Shown here one piece after another: positions 24,408 through 33,273 of a DNA stretch of 64,000 nt. The notes under the pieces are model-generated. The model did not search any database, was not told the origin of the DNA, and was given only the letters and a program-made list of their open reading frames with translations. Position numbers and translations under genes: made by a program. Each line of letters starts with the position of its first letter. Position 1 is the first letter of the stretch. The stretch is from Herpetosiphon aurantiacus DSM 785 (GTDB lineage: Bacteria > Chloroflexota > Chloroflexia > Chloroflexales > Herpetosiphonaceae): positions 6,153,199-6,217,198 of the forward strand of contig CP000875.1 in NCBI GenBank assembly GCA_000018565.1. The letters are read 5' to 3'.

Positions 24408-24827
24408 ATGTATCGCGTTCCGCATAATCCACAGCCAAAATATCGCTGGCCAATGATTCTGATGTGTTGTTACTATGGGTTTGTGGGGTTTCTGGCAATT
24501 CTTGGCAGCTGTACATTTTTTAGCATTATGATCGACTCTAAGATGCTTGGCGGCAACTACATCCTAAGTTTATTGTGGAGCAGCGTACTATTACTGGCCA
24601 ATGTCAGCCGTTTGGGCCTCTTGGTTGGTCTATTGAAATTCTATCGGTGGGCATATTATGGAGCGTTGATCATTGAGTTACTTACAATTATTAATCTGAT
24701 ATCACAATTTGTATTACATAGTGGCCTGATTACGTGGCCTGAACTCGCATCGGGCTTGATTGGAATGCTGATTCTTGGTTATCTACTTCAGCCCAAAATT
24801 AAACAACAATTCCTTAAGTCAACATAA
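24408..24827 (+). CDS. Four-helix membrane protein, paralogue A
   Basis: 139 residues with four hydrophobic segments. It begins MYRVPHNPQ and contains YYGFVGFLAILGSC, SRLGLLVGLLKFYRWAYYG and a short basic tail (KIKQQFLKST). The same pattern recurs in the gene at 25121, including YY-(3)-G near the first helix, the GSC motif, SRLxLLxGLLKxxRWAYxG and a QQF ending. I do not recognise a named family. A GAGGA ribosome site lies a few bases upstream. It is probably a small inner-membrane protein of unknown role; tandem duplication with its neighbour is likely. Confidence 0.65.
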   Translation: MYRVPHNPQPKYRWPMILMCCYYGFVGFLAILGSCTFFSIMIDSKMLGGNYILSLLWSSVLLLANVSRLGLLVGLLKFYRWAYYGALIIELLTIINLISQFVLHSGLITWPELASGLIGMLILGYLLQPKIKQQFLKST

Positions 24828-25120: not shown

Positions 25121-25561
25121 ATGTATCAAATTCCTAAAACCCCTCAATTGATTCAACAAACCCCAATCTTGCTGATTTGTGGCTATTATGCGATTATTGG
25201 CTGCTTTTTTACGCTCGGCAGTTGTTCCTATATTGGAACCTTAATCATTGGTATTGCTGTTTCTCCGCCAGAAACGCTGATCAGTGGCATGAACGCTGAG
25301 ATTTTTTGGACAACCCTATTGTTATTGCTGAATACCAGTCGTTTGGCCTTATTGATTGGTTTATTAAAAACCCGACGTTGGGCTTATTGCGGGATCATTG
25401 CACTAGAAATCAGTATGGGCATCAATTTATTATATGAAGTATGTTTGGGCCAATCACCAATGACCATTTGGCCGCTATTTACTTTTTTCAGCGGAGTCGT
25501 TGGGGTTGGCATTATGAGCTATCTCGCGCAAACTCACATTCGACAACAATTTAAGGTGTAG
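25121..25561 (+). CDS. Four-helix membrane protein, paralogue B
   Basis: 146 residues with four hydrophobic segments: PILLICGYYAIIGCFFTLGS, then an EIFWTTLLLLLNTSRLALLI helix region with LKTRRWAYCG, GIIALEISMGINLLYEV, and FTFFSGVVGVGIMSYL. It aligns with the gene at 24408 along its whole length (MYxxPxxPQ start, GSC, SRLALLIGLLKTRRWAY, QQF tail). The family is not recognised. AAAGGAG lies eight bases before the ATG. The two genes are probably an ancient tandem duplication into which a MITE-like element later inserted. Confidence 0.65.
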   Translation: MYQIPKTPQLIQQTPILLICGYYAIIGCFFTLGSCSYIGTLIIGIAVSPPETLISGMNAEIFWTTLLLLLNTSRLALLIGLLKTRRWAYCGIIALEISMGINLLYEVCLGQSPMTIWPLFTFFSGVVGVGIMSYLAQTHIRQQFKV

Positions 25562-28161: not shown

Positions 28162-29460
28162 CTACTTGAATAATTCGGCAATTCGCGATTGAATTGCTGG
28201 TAAATCTGGTTGAATGATGTAAGCACCATCACTGGTGCTGGTTTCATAACCATAGTTTAAATCAATCGATTCGCGCTGAATCCCAGCCGGCTCGAAATTC
28301 TGAATTGCCAGCACCAAACGCAAGGTCGTCGGCAAATCGATGCTGGTATATTCGAGGGTATTGTACAACGAGCTAACCAATTCGATGTTGTCAACGCTAT
28401 TATTGGCTTGCATGAGATTTTGCAAACGGGCAAAAATTGCCAAAAGCACCTGCTGTTGACGCTTACCACGCTCAAAATCGTTGTCGGCATGGCGGGTGCG
28501 GCTATAAATCAGCGCCGTTGCTCCATCCATATGTTGCATGCCTGGCAAAAAATGCGCTTCCATATAGCCATAATCAAAGGTTGGGTAGCGCGAATCGTAA
28601 ATTTCCTTGGGCACATCAACATCAATGCCCCCAATTAAATCGACCATGGTGATCATTTCTTCAAAGGTTGTAACCACCACCGCATCAATTGGCTGGCCGA
28701 TGGTGGTGCTCAGGGTTTGGCGTGCCAATTCGGCTCCAGCTTCAGCATCGCCATTATCGCCCTCGCCATACATATAAGCAGCATTTAATTTGACCGAGAA
28801 GCCATATTCCGGCGGCAAAGCGACCCATAAATCGCGGGGCAAGGAAACCAAGGCCGCGCTTTGATTGCGTGGATTGAGATGCAAAACCAACAATGCATCA
28901 GCCCGCGCTGGCTCAGTCTCGCCAGGTCGTCGATCCAAGCCCAAAATTGCCACTGTCATGGCGGCTAATGGGCGCGGGGTTGCGCTCGGTCGCGGGGTGC
29001 TGGTTGGGCGCGGGGTTACGCTTGGCTCAGTTGTGGCAATAGCTTGGGCGGTAGCCGTTGGCTGAATCACTGGAATCACGCTTGGTTCAGCTATGCCGCC
29101 TGCAATAACTGGCGCTGGCGTGTTACTTGGCTCAATTTGCACCCCAACCACTTGCTCAGGCGTGCTCCACCACCACCAACTACCGCCAAGCACCAGCACA
29201 GCCAGCATAGCAAAAACGGCCAGCGGCCAGCGGCGGCGAGTTGGTTTGGTGAGTGCTGGCGTAGGCGTAGGCGCGGCAAGCACTGGCTCTTCAAGCAGGG
29301 TCGTTAATAATTGGCGCTGTTCTTCAACCTGCAATACTTCTAATAAGGCATAGCAATCGGCACAATTAGCAATGTGGAAACCCATTTGAGCACGTTCGGG
29401 CGGACGCACCGCCGGACGAATTCCTGCCGCAAGTTGGCGGCGCACGTCTTGACATTCCAT
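28162..29460 (-). CDS. LytR-CpsA-Psr (LCP) family protein with zinc-binding anti-sigma-like N-terminus
   Basis: 432 residues. The N-terminus (about 1-50) has MECQDVRR and GFHIANCADCYALLE, i.e. Cys3 plus the H-x3-C-x2-C signature of zinc anti-sigma (ZAS) domains. A transmembrane helix (about 74-94, LAVFAMLAVLVLGGSW) and a long Thr/Pro-rich linker follow. The LCP catalytic domain (about 175-370) has VAILGLDRRPGETEPARADA, ALVSLPRDLWVALPP, IGGIDVDVP and YSRTRHADNDFERGKRQQQV, where the conserved Arg and Asp residues bind polyprenyl pyrophosphate. LCP enzymes attach glycopolymers to peptidoglycan outside the cell. A cytoplasmic zinc head is unexpected for the family. AAGGA lies about seven bases upstream of the ATG. 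Confidence 0.85.
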   Translation of the reverse strand: MECQDVRRQLAAGIRPAVRPPERAQMGFHIANCADCYALLEVLQVEEQRQLLTTLLEEPVLAAPTPTPALTKPTRRRWPLAVFAMLAVLVLGGSWWWWSTPEQVVGVQIEPSNTPAPVIAGGIAEPSVIPVIQPTATAQAIATTEPSVTPRPTSTPRPSATPRPLAAMTVAILGLDRRPGETEPARADALLVLHLNPRNQSAALVSLPRDLWVALPPEYGFSVKLNAAYMYGEGDNGDAEAGAELARQTLSTTIGQPIDAVVVTTFEEMITMVDLIGGIDVDVPKEIYDSRYPTFDYGYMEAHFLPGMQHMDGATALIYSRTRHADNDFERGKRQQQVLLAIFARLQNLMQANNSVDNIELVSSLYNTLEYTSIDLPTTLRLVLAIQNFEPAGIQRESIDLNYGYETSTSDGAYIIQPDLPAIQSRIAELFK

Positions 29461-29520
29461 GCAACGTCCTTGAGGATGGTAGTTTGTCGCTTGATTATAG
29501 GCGGCTCGTCGCGAAGATGC

Positions 29521-29576: not shown

Positions 29577-32231
29577 TTAATCAGCAGCGACTGGCATAAT
29601 AAACGTGAAGGTCGTGCCTTGGTTGACCGCACTTTCAAGCCAAATCCGGCCACCCATCAGTTGAATTAGCGGGCGAACTAGCGAAAGCCCCAAGCCCGTA
29701 CCGCCAGCTTCAATTTTTAGCGGGTTTTCGGTACGATAAAAACGATCAAAGACTTTTTCATGTTCGCTGGGGTCGATGCCCACGCCGCTATCTTGCACCG
29801 CTAAGGCGATATAGCGCCGCCCGACTTGCAGCCCTTCGCGTTGCTTGTTTGGAATATCGTTGAAATTGATTTCGAAGGCTTTCACGCTGATTTTGCCGCC
29901 ATTGGGCGTGTATTTGATCGCGTTGGATAGCACGTTCGAGGCCACTTGGCGAATACGCTCCATATCGCTCCAAATGGTTGGCAAATTGGGCGCGAGGCTT
30001 AGCGAGAACTCCTGTTGGCGCTGGGTAATTTCAGCCCGTGCATTACCAACCACGCTACTCATTACATCAGCGACCATCAGCCGGGCCATTTGTAATTCAA
30101 CGCTGCCAGTTTCAATCTTGGTGATATCCAGCAAATCGTTGATAATCGCGATCATCCGCTCGGAGTTATGGGCAATCGTGTTAAGGAATTCCTTCTGAGT
30201 GGAATTTACTTCGCCCAACGAACCCATCGCCAGCAATTGAGTATAGCCTTTGATCGAGGTCATCGGCGTGCGCAACTCGTGCGAAACCGTACCAATAAAC
30301 TCAGTTTTCAACCGATCCGATTCGACTTCGCGGGTAATATCGCGGCCAATCAAACACGCGCCCAGCAATTCGCCACGCTCAGTCATCACCGGAACCAAAG
30401 TCACACTGATCGATTGGGTGGCGCGTTTGATGATAATGCCTTGGGTTTGGGTGGCATCGGGGTTGTTCAACACTGCTCCCAGCGGATCGCCTGGTAATTT
30501 GATATTCAATGATTCAAGCAATTCATCGAAGCTTTGAGTTACCAACTCATCAAGTGGCCGATCCAGAATTGATTCGGCGGCAGCGTTGGCCAAAATAATA
30601 TTGCGATCAAGATTGAACACAATCACTGCATCGTTCAGCGATTGCAAAATAGCGTTGTTTTGGCTCGAAACTTCTTCTTGATGGCGCAGCATGGTTGAAA
30701 GCTTGATGGTGCGTTCGGCCAAATATTCGTAAAGCTGGGCGTTATAAATGGCAATTGCGATTTCGCCAGCGATTGCTTTGAGCAAACGCATATGGCTTTG
30801 ATTGAAAAAGTGCGATTTAGGATGTGAGAGCATCAACACGCCCACAATATCATCGCCTGCGATCAGCGGCATGCCGACCAACGAGCCAGTATTTTTGCCA
30901 ACCTCCTGGCCAAAGGCATCAACTTGCACCCAACGATCATCGTTGGTCACATCGTTAACCAAGGCTGGCTGGCGATGTTGGGCGATCCAGCCGACCAAGC
31001 CTTCACCAATTTGGAAGCGCCGCGAACCAAGCGTATGCGAAATTCCGGCCAAGGTTGCCCGATCAACCAGCAAGCCTGTAGCAGCGTCGATCAGCATCAC
31101 CGAGCCATGTTGCACGCCAGTCAGGTTGGCTAGTGCTTGCAAAATCCGGTTGAGCAGCACATCAATTTCGAGGGTCGAAATATCGCGAGCAATATCAGCA
31201 ATTGCTTCGAGCCGATCACGTTCTTCGCTCAGTTCGGCGGTACGCTCGGCAACTTTGCGTTCGAGGTCGGCGTTTAATTGCTGCACCGTACTATACAAAC
31301 GAATATTTTGCAGCGTGACCACAATTTGGTTGGCAACCGTGCGCCAGAGGTTCATCATCACATCGTCGATGCGCTCGATCAAAGTTGAGCCTTGGGCCAC
31401 TAAACAGCCAAGCATATTATTTTCTTGGCGCAGCGGCACAAACAACGCCCCTTGGTTATCGACCATCCACGAGGTGCTATTTGGCTCGACCATTGGTTGG
31501 AGTTGGACCATGCCTTGAGCGGTAGCAACTTTGAGGGCTGCGGGCAAATTTTCAGGATCAAGCGGCTGGCCAGTTAACTTGGCCCAATCATCGCCCCAGG
31601 CATGTTCGATCATCCATGTGTCGTCGTCGATGCGCAACACAATTGCACAGCGCTCGACCGTAAAGGCTGAGAGAATTCGTGGGCCAATATCTTCAAGAAT
31701 TTCGCGATCCAGCGAGGCGCTCATGGCTTGCGAAAGCTCATAGAGCGTAGACATCTGTAAAGCAAAATAATCGGATTCGGAAGCCATTTGAGCCTGATGA
31801 TCAAGCAGATATTCGGCTTGGGCCACCTGTTCGCGCAATTCGGCTTGGACTGTGGTGTTGTGATGATTGGTGAGCAAAATCGTACAGCGCTCGACCAATT
31901 GATCAAGCTCGTTCGACGATTGCCAGCGCGTCAGCTTGTGTGTTTGCAATACATCAACGATTGCTGGGCGTAACTGAAAACTCAGCTGAATTAGGGTGGT
32001 TAATTCAAAGGCATGCCAATCGATGCCCAACTCAACCAAAGCTAGCTCAAGATCGGTTTGCTCGTCAGGTAACGTTAGCAGCAACTCATATAAACGCCGC
32101 ACATGCACCGAGGGAAAATGCACCCCATTTTTGGGCACGGCAGTGCCGAGGCGATGCACCCAGCGGGCGATCACCTGCTCAGCATTATCAATCAGAAATT
32201 GACGCAATTGAGGCGTAGACGTTTTCTGCAT
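29577..32231 (-). CDS. Multidomain sensor histidine kinase (RsbRD-like N-term, GAF-GAF-PAS-HisKA-HATPase)
   Basis: 884 residues from ATG 32231 (AAGGTG upstream). Domains in order: a helical N-terminus resembling RsbR/RsbRD N-terminal domains (LRQFLIDNAEQVIARWVHRL, residues 5-130); GAF 1 (about 180-320); a coiled coil (RKVAERTAELSEERDRLEA, about 335-360); GAF 2 (about 365-505); PAS (about 525-640, with NAILQSLNDAVIVFNLDRNI); HisKA with TVSHELRTPMTSIKGYTQLL (His near 650); and HATPase with SNVLSNAIKYTPNGG, VQDSGVGIDP and GTGLGLSLV. It is complete and no receiver domain is fused. It is the last gene after rsbT and rsbX, so it may act in that switch rather than in a classic two-component pair. 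Confidence 0.9.
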   Translation of the reverse strand: MQKTSTPQLRQFLIDNAEQVIARWVHRLGTAVPKNGVHFPSVHVRRLYELLLTLPDEQTDLELALVELGIDWHAFELTTLIQLSFQLRPAIVDVLQTHKLTRWQSSNELDQLVERCTILLTNHHNTTVQAELREQVAQAEYLLDHQAQMASESDYFALQMSTLYELSQAMSASLDREILEDIGPRILSAFTVERCAIVLRIDDDTWMIEHAWGDDWAKLTGQPLDPENLPAALKVATAQGMVQLQPMVEPNSTSWMVDNQGALFVPLRQENNMLGCLVAQGSTLIERIDDVMMNLWRTVANQIVVTLQNIRLYSTVQQLNADLERKVAERTAELSEERDRLEAIADIARDISTLEIDVLLNRILQALANLTGVQHGSVMLIDAATGLLVDRATLAGISHTLGSRRFQIGEGLVGWIAQHRQPALVNDVTNDDRWVQVDAFGQEVGKNTGSLVGMPLIAGDDIVGVLMLSHPKSHFFNQSHMRLLKAIAGEIAIAIYNAQLYEYLAERTIKLSTMLRHQEEVSSQNNAILQSLNDAVIVFNLDRNIILANAAAESILDRPLDELVTQSFDELLESLNIKLPGDPLGAVLNNPDATQTQGIIIKRATQSISVTLVPVMTERGELLGACLIGRDITREVESDRLKTEFIGTVSHELRTPMTSIKGYTQLLAMGSLGEVNSTQKEFLNTIAHNSERMIAIINDLLDITKIETGSVELQMARLMVADVMSSVVGNARAEITQRQQEFSLSLAPNLPTIWSDMERIRQVASNVLSNAIKYTPNGGKISVKAFEINFNDIPNKQREGLQVGRRYIALAVQDSGVGIDPSEHEKVFDRFYRTENPLKIEAGGTGLGLSLVRPLIQLMGGRIWLESAVNQGTTFTFIMPVAAD

Positions 32232-32263
32232 AGCGCACCTTCTGGACAAAACGCAAGGCTGAC

Positions 32264-32845
32264 CTACTGGGTTTGAGCAATCAGAATCGTGACATCATCG
32301 GTGGTTTTGCCATAGCGTTCCATCAAGCTGATCGCCAAGGCTTCGGGGTTTTCGATCGCATGATGCAAAGCCGAATCGGTAATCATGCGAGTTGAAATGC
32401 CGTCGCTATACAACACAAAAATATCACCGAGATTAAAGGTATAGGTCATTTCCAGCAGGCTTGGTAACTGATTATGCCCAAGAATGCCATTTTTGGAAAT
32501 AGGCTTAATCACCCGATCGCTGATGACGTGAATACCTATATTACCTACGCCAATATAGCTTGCGCGAAGATGATCGAACTCCAAGCGCAATAAGCCAATC
32601 ACTGCGCCGCGTGTGCCGTGAAGTGCCTTATGACAACGCTCGATCAATTCTTTGAGCGGTCGGGTCGCATGTTGGTGCAATTCTTCTAAGGCTAATTTGG
32701 TTGGCTTGGCTGCTTCTGCGCCCCCGCCAAGGCCATCGATCACAGCGATTAAGATACTATTTTGACTTTCGATCACAGCATAGCCATCGCCAGAGACCGA
32801 TTGACCATATTTGCTGCGCGTTTGGGCGCTCCAATTTAATCTCAT
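32264..32845 (-). CDS. RsbX-like PP2C (SpoIIE-type) serine phosphatase
   Basis: 193 residues. A compact PP2C-like domain has LIAVIDGLGGGAEAAKPTKL (metal-binding Asp with DG), SYIGVGNIGIHVISD, GDIFVLYSDGISTRM and KTTDDVTILIAQ, the usual four conserved blocks. In stressosome systems RsbX removes phosphates from RsbR/RsbS. The start ATG at 32845 overlaps the stop codon of the rsbT-like gene by one base (TAATG) and has a GGAGG upstream, so ATG 32881 in the longer frame is rejected. Operon order is rsbT, rsbX, sensor kinase. Confidence 0.85.
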   Translation of the reverse strand: MRLNWSAQTRSKYGQSVSGDGYAVIESQNSILIAVIDGLGGGAEAAKPTKLALEELHQHATRPLKELIERCHKALHGTRGAVIGLLRLEFDHLRASYIGVGNIGIHVISDRVIKPISKNGILGHNQLPSLLEMTYTFNLGDIFVLYSDGISTRMITDSALHHAIENPEALAISLMERYGKTTDDVTILIAQTQ

Positions 32846-33273
32846 TATAGTCCTCCGCGTTCGCGCCGACGTGGGAGCCACCGCCGTGCTCGAACGACCG
32901 TGCCAACACCAACTTGGGATTCAATTTCGAATTCGTCCATCAACCGTTTAACCCCAGGCAAGCCCGTGCCAAGGGTCTGCTTGGTGCTATAGCCATCACG
33001 TAAGGCAAGGGTTGTATCTGCGATGCCTGGTCCATTGTCGCTTGCCTCGATTTCGATACCACGTTGCTCGTTGCGTTCAATTTCGCGCACGGTTATGCTA
33101 CCGCGTTCGGCGTGAGCCAAAATATTGCGCGTCAATTCTAAAATCGCAATTTCAATCCGTGTACGATCAACATCATCAAAGCCTAGGCCACGCGATACTT
33201 CACGTCCATGGCTGACCGCGATGTAGACATCAACCTCACGAGCAATCGTTTGGGTCAGAGGTTCACGACTCAT
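32845..33273 (-). CDS. RsbT-like anti-sigma-type serine kinase (GHKL ATPase)
   Basis: 142 residues with a GHKL ATPase fold. Blocks are IEIAILELTRNILAHAERGS (N box), IEIEASDNGPGIADTTLALR (G1 box) and TLGTGLPGVKRLMDEFEIES (G2 box, with GTGLPG). This GTGLxG form with a preceding DGYSTKQ resembles RsbT, the kinase that phosphorylates STAS proteins of the stressosome, more than RsbW. First gene of a three-gene operon; no RsbS-type single STAS gene is seen immediately upstream. The start is ATG 33273 after CGGAAACG. Confidence 0.85.
   Translation of the reverse strand: MSREPLTQTIAREVDVYIAVSHGREVSRGLGFDDVDRTRIEIAILELTRNILAHAERGSITVREIERNEQRGIEIEASDNGPGIADTTLALRDGYSTKQTLGTGLPGVKRLMDEFEIESQVGVGTVVRARRWLPRRRERGGL

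Follow-up and report, generated by a model that had tools for sequence, protein, structure and literature searches.

A putative LCP-family ligase of the Chloroflexales with a cytoplasmic head related in sequence to zinc anti-sigma domains

The 64,000-nucleotide stretch of Herpetosiphon aurantiacus DSM 785 analysed here (contig CP000875.1, hereafter the window; host genome 6.79 Mb in three contigs) encodes an LCP-family protein of 432 amino acids (28162..29460, minus strand, ATG at 29460; assigned by open reading frame and Pfam) with an N-terminal zinc head that, judged by profile comparison, is homologous to zinc anti-sigma (ZAS) domains. We give an even chance to the reading that the protein is a ligase with a ZAS-derived, zinc-stabilised cytoplasmic docking head that places or gates the enzyme. 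As a membrane LCP ligase it would, by family, attach lipid-linked glycopolymers to the wall on the outer side of the membrane, an activity that we infer from the catalytic domain. Its cytoplasmic N-terminus would form a zinc-binding three-helix bundle of common ancestry with ZAS domains, without their sigma-gripping fourth helix, and would bind a cytoplasmic or membrane partner with two elements, the helix that bears LLxxLL and the surface of the conserved GxxPG...LGFHL residues. Such docking may place or gate the ligase at the site of polymer making and export; both the identity of the partner and its effect are putative.

Protein layout and gene neighbourhood

The open reading frame, its strand and coordinates, and the ligand pattern of Cys3 plus H-x3-C-x2-C (C3, H29, C33, C36) are all as the sequence-only reading first described them, and the closest named loci to the protein were from Herpetosiphon species. 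A putative ribosome-binding-like AAGGA was read from the sequence 6 nt 5' of the ATG (29467..29471, minus strand). On the same minus strand, residues 1-36 (29353..29460) hold the zf-HC2/ZAS-like zinc site, as seen by Pfam, alignment and profile comparison, and residues 37-62 (29275..29352) cover most of the third helix (34-57), a long one that bears LLxxLL and is followed by a proline-rich linker. A Pro/Thr-rich cytoplasmic linker of low model confidence (residues 63-77; 29230..29274) takes the position of helix 4 in canonical ZAS domains and leads into a single predicted transmembrane helix (residues 78-98; 29167..29229), which is preceded by RRR in the inside-positive sense. Outside the membrane, a predicted Ser/Thr/Pro linker of mostly low confidence (residues 99-165; 28966..29166) connects to the LCP catalytic domain and the C-terminal part (residues 166-432; 28165..28965).

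The order of head, one transmembrane helix and LCP domain was upheld by an AlphaFold2 model (42 sequences, mean pLDDT 80.3) with helices at residues 3-11, 21-32 and 34-57, the transmembrane helix at 78-98 and then an LCP fold. The structure prediction that had been proposed for the N-terminal head thus gave three helices before the membrane and none between residues 57 and 78; modelled on its own, the head had a lower confidence (mean pLDDT 70.9). The family assignment of the catalytic domain was clear (LytR_cpsA_psr, PF03816; E 2e-33, 116.1 bits against a cut-off of 24.6), and the full model matched TagV, Cps2A, LytR and MsrR best in Foldseek, with E-values down to 2.6e-21. The LCP domain of the model also matched the TagT structure, and R186, D188, R209, D210, R321, R323, D326, R331 and R334, which we take to be the LCP active-site residues, were identical to the aligned residues of TagT and unvaried in all 27 rows of alignment A1.

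Upstream on the same strand lies a gene for a GAF/PAS histidine kinase (29577-32249, minus strand), and downstream are genes for a DUF5656 membrane protein and an L-threonylcarbamoyladenylate synthase. Directly ahead of the kinase gene, the window also holds a SpoIIE-type phosphatase and an RsbW/SpoIIAB-like ATPase (32264-33273, minus strand), a partner-switching-like pair, and elsewhere a tandem of small membrane-like proteins that are alike by eye and have no Pfam match (24408-24827 and 25121-25561, plus strand). A histidine kinase, DUF5656 and a tsaC-type gene were the neighbours in Herpetosiphonaceae; across 49 loci, an S9 peptidase was found in 20 and a NAGPA-like gene in 11. These 49 neighbourhoods comprised the window, 42 of the 45 named headed loci and six further loci, some on short contigs; clustering placed the LCP gene in 46 of them, 27 of which had at least 5 kb on both sides. 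Among the 49, no neighbour gene was found to be conserved across families, and as the neighbourhoods differ between families, the attempt to read the function of the head from its gene neighbours was rejected. Since no partner gene was found among these neighbours, docking is deduced from the conservation of the head itself, and homo-oligomerisation would yield the same pattern.

The zinc head and its kinship with anti-sigma domains

The head would bind zinc, as judged from its ligands. Its match to zf-HC2 was close to the cut-off of 22.2 bits: hmmscan against Pfam gave 18.0 bits for the window protein and 21.5 for the N-terminus alone, while the genome-level search gave 22.3. Two orthologues scored 30.5 (G028) and 17.3 bits (G013), and 22 of the 42 members of alignment A3 matched at E<=0.05, whereas an NCBIfam anti-sigma family gave 17.4 bits, far under its cut-off of 50. 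Besides the ligands, G13, P16, G27 and F28 were conserved, forming a lineage signature of G13-x2-P16 and G27-F28-H29.

A profile of the head was aligned with ten ZAS domains encoded next to sigma genes in G000, G009 and G013, all genomes of the order, giving an hhalign probability of 97.3 and a score of 58.8. The maximum was 16.4 among 40 column shuffles and 30.0 among 40 shuffles with the ligands held fixed; as the observed score exceeds the ligand-fixed maximum, the likeness extends past the metal ligands. On these profile scores the LCP head is homologous to ZAS domains, which bears out the earlier assignment of a zinc anti-sigma-type domain. Individual matches were fainter: RslA (3hug_B) ranked first in the PDB sequence search (E 0.18), in Foldseek (E 6.4) and in VIA-align (Z 4.0), none of them significant, and the fold search with the head alone was set aside as it returned weak matches only. 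In the available text on RsiW, the ligands are placed at C3, H30, C34 and C37 (PMC5358783), and the available part of a second source argues that such domains, when membrane-bound, often have a zinc site that is structural and not sensing (PMC7406223).

After the zinc site, LLxxLL or a near variant was present in 37 of 42 aligned members, counted with a loose pattern. An LLxxLL-type motif was also retained in three orthologues that have lost the zinc site (G055, G059, G122), spelled LLTTLLIEP in L086, which is on the same contig as L183 of G055, LLAELLAKPP in L184 of G059, and FLAELLATTP in L102 and L252 of G122. No such motif was seen in the headless rows L087, L092, L099, L107, L111, L117 and L121, where the whole cytoplasmic head is absent. 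That the helix is kept where the zinc site is lost suggests that it makes a contact independently of the metal.

Other proteins with heads of this type were noted in passing. A 714-aa frame (L171:1833-3974, minus strand) matches sigma region 4 weakly (E 1.1e-4, under the cut-off) and continues with a ZAS-like H-x3-C-x2-C and a hydrophobic stretch; it has the appearance of a sigma-like protein fused to a membrane anti-sigma domain of its own. Three zf-HC2-type frames of 539-567 aa (L168, L169, L170), found in a family that belongs to the class and not to the order, combine a DGELSP/DGELTP-type head with a hydrophobic stretch and long Pro/Thr-rich parts.

Spread and conservation of the head

The sequence-only reading had named unconserved Cys and His residues in orthologues as grounds for abandoning it, and had proposed a search for the same fusion in other genomes. 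An LCP match was found in all 60 genomes searched, the host genome included, and the ligand pattern was present in 28 of 28 N-terminally intact loci among the 30 best-matching ones, the window's own counted in (contig ends truncate L019 and L030). The pattern is thus no product of chance, and the stated ground for abandoning the reading did not apply. Of 120 sampled genomes of the class, 53 belong to the same order, a total taken from a kinship-sorted genome list; the head profile matched 40 of these at E<=1e-9 and 0 of the 67 others, where the best match had an E-value of 2.4e-6. In 39 of these 40, head and LCP matches agree in strand, position and length of the open frame; in G057 the two are on different contigs. 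Adding weak matches within LCP frames in G010, G029, G037 and G039, and two heads recognised by eye (G035, G042), the fusion recurs across the order in 46 of 53 genomes. Order genomes without an intact head site were G055, G059 and G122, where the zinc site is lost, and G036, where the gene is cut, and the head-profile search found no headed LCP gene in G015, G033 and G130. Across 301 genomes of the phylum, the profile at E<=1e-7 matched 27 genomes of the order and one other (G372, E 5.7e-8), which was rejected as a ZAS protein with, by eye, a propeller-like outer part and not an LCP domain.

Among 80 named loci, 42 have C-x25-H-x3-C-x2-C and three a shorter variant, whereas the pattern is absent from 30 and the remaining five are truncated 5'; the source genera of the loci include Herpetosiphon, Roseiflexus, Oscillochloris, Chloroploca and Chloroflexus. 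The variant spacing C-x24-H occurs in the six g6 genomes inspected and in L114 and L116, and C-x21-H in L089. As the rows of alignments A1-A4 were preselected for the motif, ligand invariance within them is not independent evidence, which comes instead from the counts in the best 30 loci and in the class sample.

We placed the heads on a tree of 82 LCP rows, built in 'quick' mode with midpoint rooting and with long branches flagged, and all of them fell on one side of a single branch (62 rows, SH-aLRT 97). The other 20 rows are headless and include the second LCP gene of the window's genome as well as LCPs of Anaerolineae and of Ardenticatena type. Within the 62 are 11 truly headless rows, L089 having been labelled headless by the motif filter of the tree when it really has a shorter-spaced head. 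With the labels used, the head state needs seven changes by parsimony, which fits one gain and several losses without proving it. Seven of the 11 headless rows, among them L099, L107, L111, L117 and L121, form one sub-clade (SH-aLRT 99). The organisms concerned each have a further LCP locus within the 62 rows; five of these loci are headed and two are 5'-cut. Headless paralogues in the same organisms, together with the seven state changes, indicate that some members can do without the head.

At the level of aligned residues, conservation of the head comes close to that of the catalytic domain. In 23 sequences left after a 70% filter, mean pairwise identity was 0.522 for residues 1-40 and 0.569 for residues 166-350, compared to 0.208-0.296 for the linkers and transmembrane helix. 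Four of five congeners (L004 left out) gave dN/dS values of 0.03-0.14 for the head and 0.05-0.07 for the LCP part. In three congeners the head's dN/dS of 0.11-0.14 was about double the 0.07 of the LCP part because dS is lower in the head, dN being similar (0.066-0.074 in the head, 0.055-0.062 in the LCP part). That the head is a functionless relic of an ancient fusion, as the headless paralogues and a few losses might suggest, is very improbable, since such values indicate purifying selection on the head, which is also kept across most of the order.

Further loci were noted during the survey. G016 has a second same-headed LCP gene about 16 kb from the first (L182; G016:C10:51000-57000), and Chloroflexales-type LCP genes occur in a MAG labelled Candidatus Gracilibacteria (L080, L098), probably misbinned. 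An MFS transporter frame of 594 aa (L167:1612-3393, minus strand) has an N-terminal GxxPGT...LGFHLxxCxxC as in LCP heads; it may be another type of protein that uses the head, or its frame may be extended by chance. An apparent polyketide synthase-LCP fusion (L122:1973-10789, plus strand; 2939-aa frame) spans an N block and was discarded as an assembly artefact.

Candidate roles of the head and comparison with known systems

The sequence-only reading had also suggested a sigma factor as the partner of the head and a search for a linked ECF sigma gene, and here it was not borne out: helix 4 is missing from the model and no linked sigma gene was found. In the model, which was made for the window protein, a low-pLDDT stretch without a helix runs from residue 57 to the transmembrane helix at 78. 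The ten local ZAS proteins have, in their majority, a segment PPxxxARLxARL after helix 3, and no conserved counterpart to it was found in the alignment of LCP heads, which have a variable proline-rich linker instead. According to the accessible part of PMC7406223, 12 of the 14 strongest coevolving contacts in this anti-sigma class join helix 4 to sigma region 2, the other two coming from helix 1. The sigma-binding reading is weak because the model lacks the fourth helix.

A true anti-sigma factor, whose head would hold an ECF sigma encoded elsewhere and release it upon a change of the LCP domain or wall, making the enzyme a sensor too, is the alternative that survives best, and we regard it as unlikely. 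It is favoured by the homology to ZAS domains that lie beside sigma genes in this order and by the first rank of RslA. Chloroflexi ECFs are, in the coevolution study, paired with this anti-sigma class unusually often (72%; PMC7406223), and in the excerpted account of RsiW, helix 1 contacts sigma region 4 and the bundle of helices 1-3 blocks its DNA binding (PMC5358783). The host genome moreover has 33 sigma region-2 matches and four zf-HC2 matches, the LCP one included. Against it, besides the missing helix 4, a clear ECF gene was found in one of the 49 neighbourhoods (L089), about 8 kb from the LCP gene; other matches in the ECF search were one of 23 bits in L042 and two fainter ones in L089 and L069. 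The distance from the LCP head to the nearest sigma gene was 214 kb in the host genome (G000), 70 kb in G028, 13 kb in G013 and 65 kb in G009, and a linked ECF partner was therefore rejected. As a control, zf-HC2 domains outside LCP proteins were placed in the same four genomes: 14 of the 18 that exceed the cut-off have a sigma gene no more than 1.5 kb away, compared to none of two LCP heads; at E<=0.1 the counts were 17 of 26 and none of three.

A conserved orphan ECF did not stand out as a candidate either. Reciprocal best hits gave seven sigma clusters common to the four genomes, one of them of primary-sigma length, and 19 of the 25 members of the six ECF-type clusters adjoin a ZAS or membrane gene, as scored with a loose open-reading-frame and motif filter that missed some ZAS genes. 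A sigma-factor role of the head is thus possible, with less in its support than docking, and the partner is probably not an ECF sigma. The bolder version, in which a minimal ZAS head would hold an unlinked ECF sigma via region 4 alone and signal substrate occupancy or wall damage at the LCP domain inward, so that ligation of wall glycopolymers would be coupled directly to transcription across the order, we rate below both of the alternatives that follow.

Next in rank is a role in oligomerisation or topology, with the head dimerising the ligase or merely fixing its N-in orientation. One transmembrane helix with RRR before it and the leucine-rich stretch of the long third helix would suit this role; the conservation of loop residues goes beyond what orientation requires, and we hold it to be rather unlikely. 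A thiol or zinc switch, in which cytoplasmic oxidation of the CHCC site would alter the head and tune ligation up or down, comes after it and is likewise doubtful: the ligands are of the CHCC type found in RsrA and RsiW, and a Cys3-Cys37 disulfide can form in RsiW, but oxidised RsiW retains its overall shape, as far as the accessible text describes (PMC5358783), and three orthologues are without the zinc site. 

If, as in the preferred docking reading, the head binds a partner, it would open a way to study the placement and regulation of LCP ligases from the cell interior. It would also suggest that ZAS folds serve purposes other than sigma control, and so advise caution before a membrane protein is labelled an anti-sigma factor for its zf-HC2 domain. 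To our knowledge, the cell walls of this group have been little studied. No described case of an LCP-zinc head fusion was found in the literature searched, for which zf-HC2 is a poor probe.

The nearest precedent for an LCP protein tied to an ECF sigma system is EcfY of Bacillus thuringiensis, thought to share an operon with sigW and ecfX; there the putative anti-sigma factor is a separate gene and no fused zinc head is reported in the available part of the source (PMC2632651). The window protein resembles the LCP family (TagT/TagU/TagV, LytR, Cps2A; PF03816) in its catalytic domain, predicted fold and one predicted transmembrane helix before it, and differs in its zinc head, as known members are mostly short-tailed. 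The earlier statement that a short tail is normal for LCP proteins largely stands: in the accessible portion of the 2008 family survey, cytoplasmic tails were of 6-19 residues in eight sequences, and one was of 121-123; the same portion calls the cytoplasmic domain of the Chloroflexi LCP cluster short and makes no mention of zinc (PMC2632651). With class I ZAS/ASDI proteins (RsiW, RsrA, ChrR, RslA; zf-HC2, PF13490), the head shares the C...H-x3-C-x2-C ligands near the RsiW positions and a predicted three-helix bundle N-terminal to one transmembrane helix; unlike these, it is predicted to be without helix 4, is without a linked sigma gene, carries the lineage-specific GxxPG and LGFHL signature, and has an enzyme as its outer domain.
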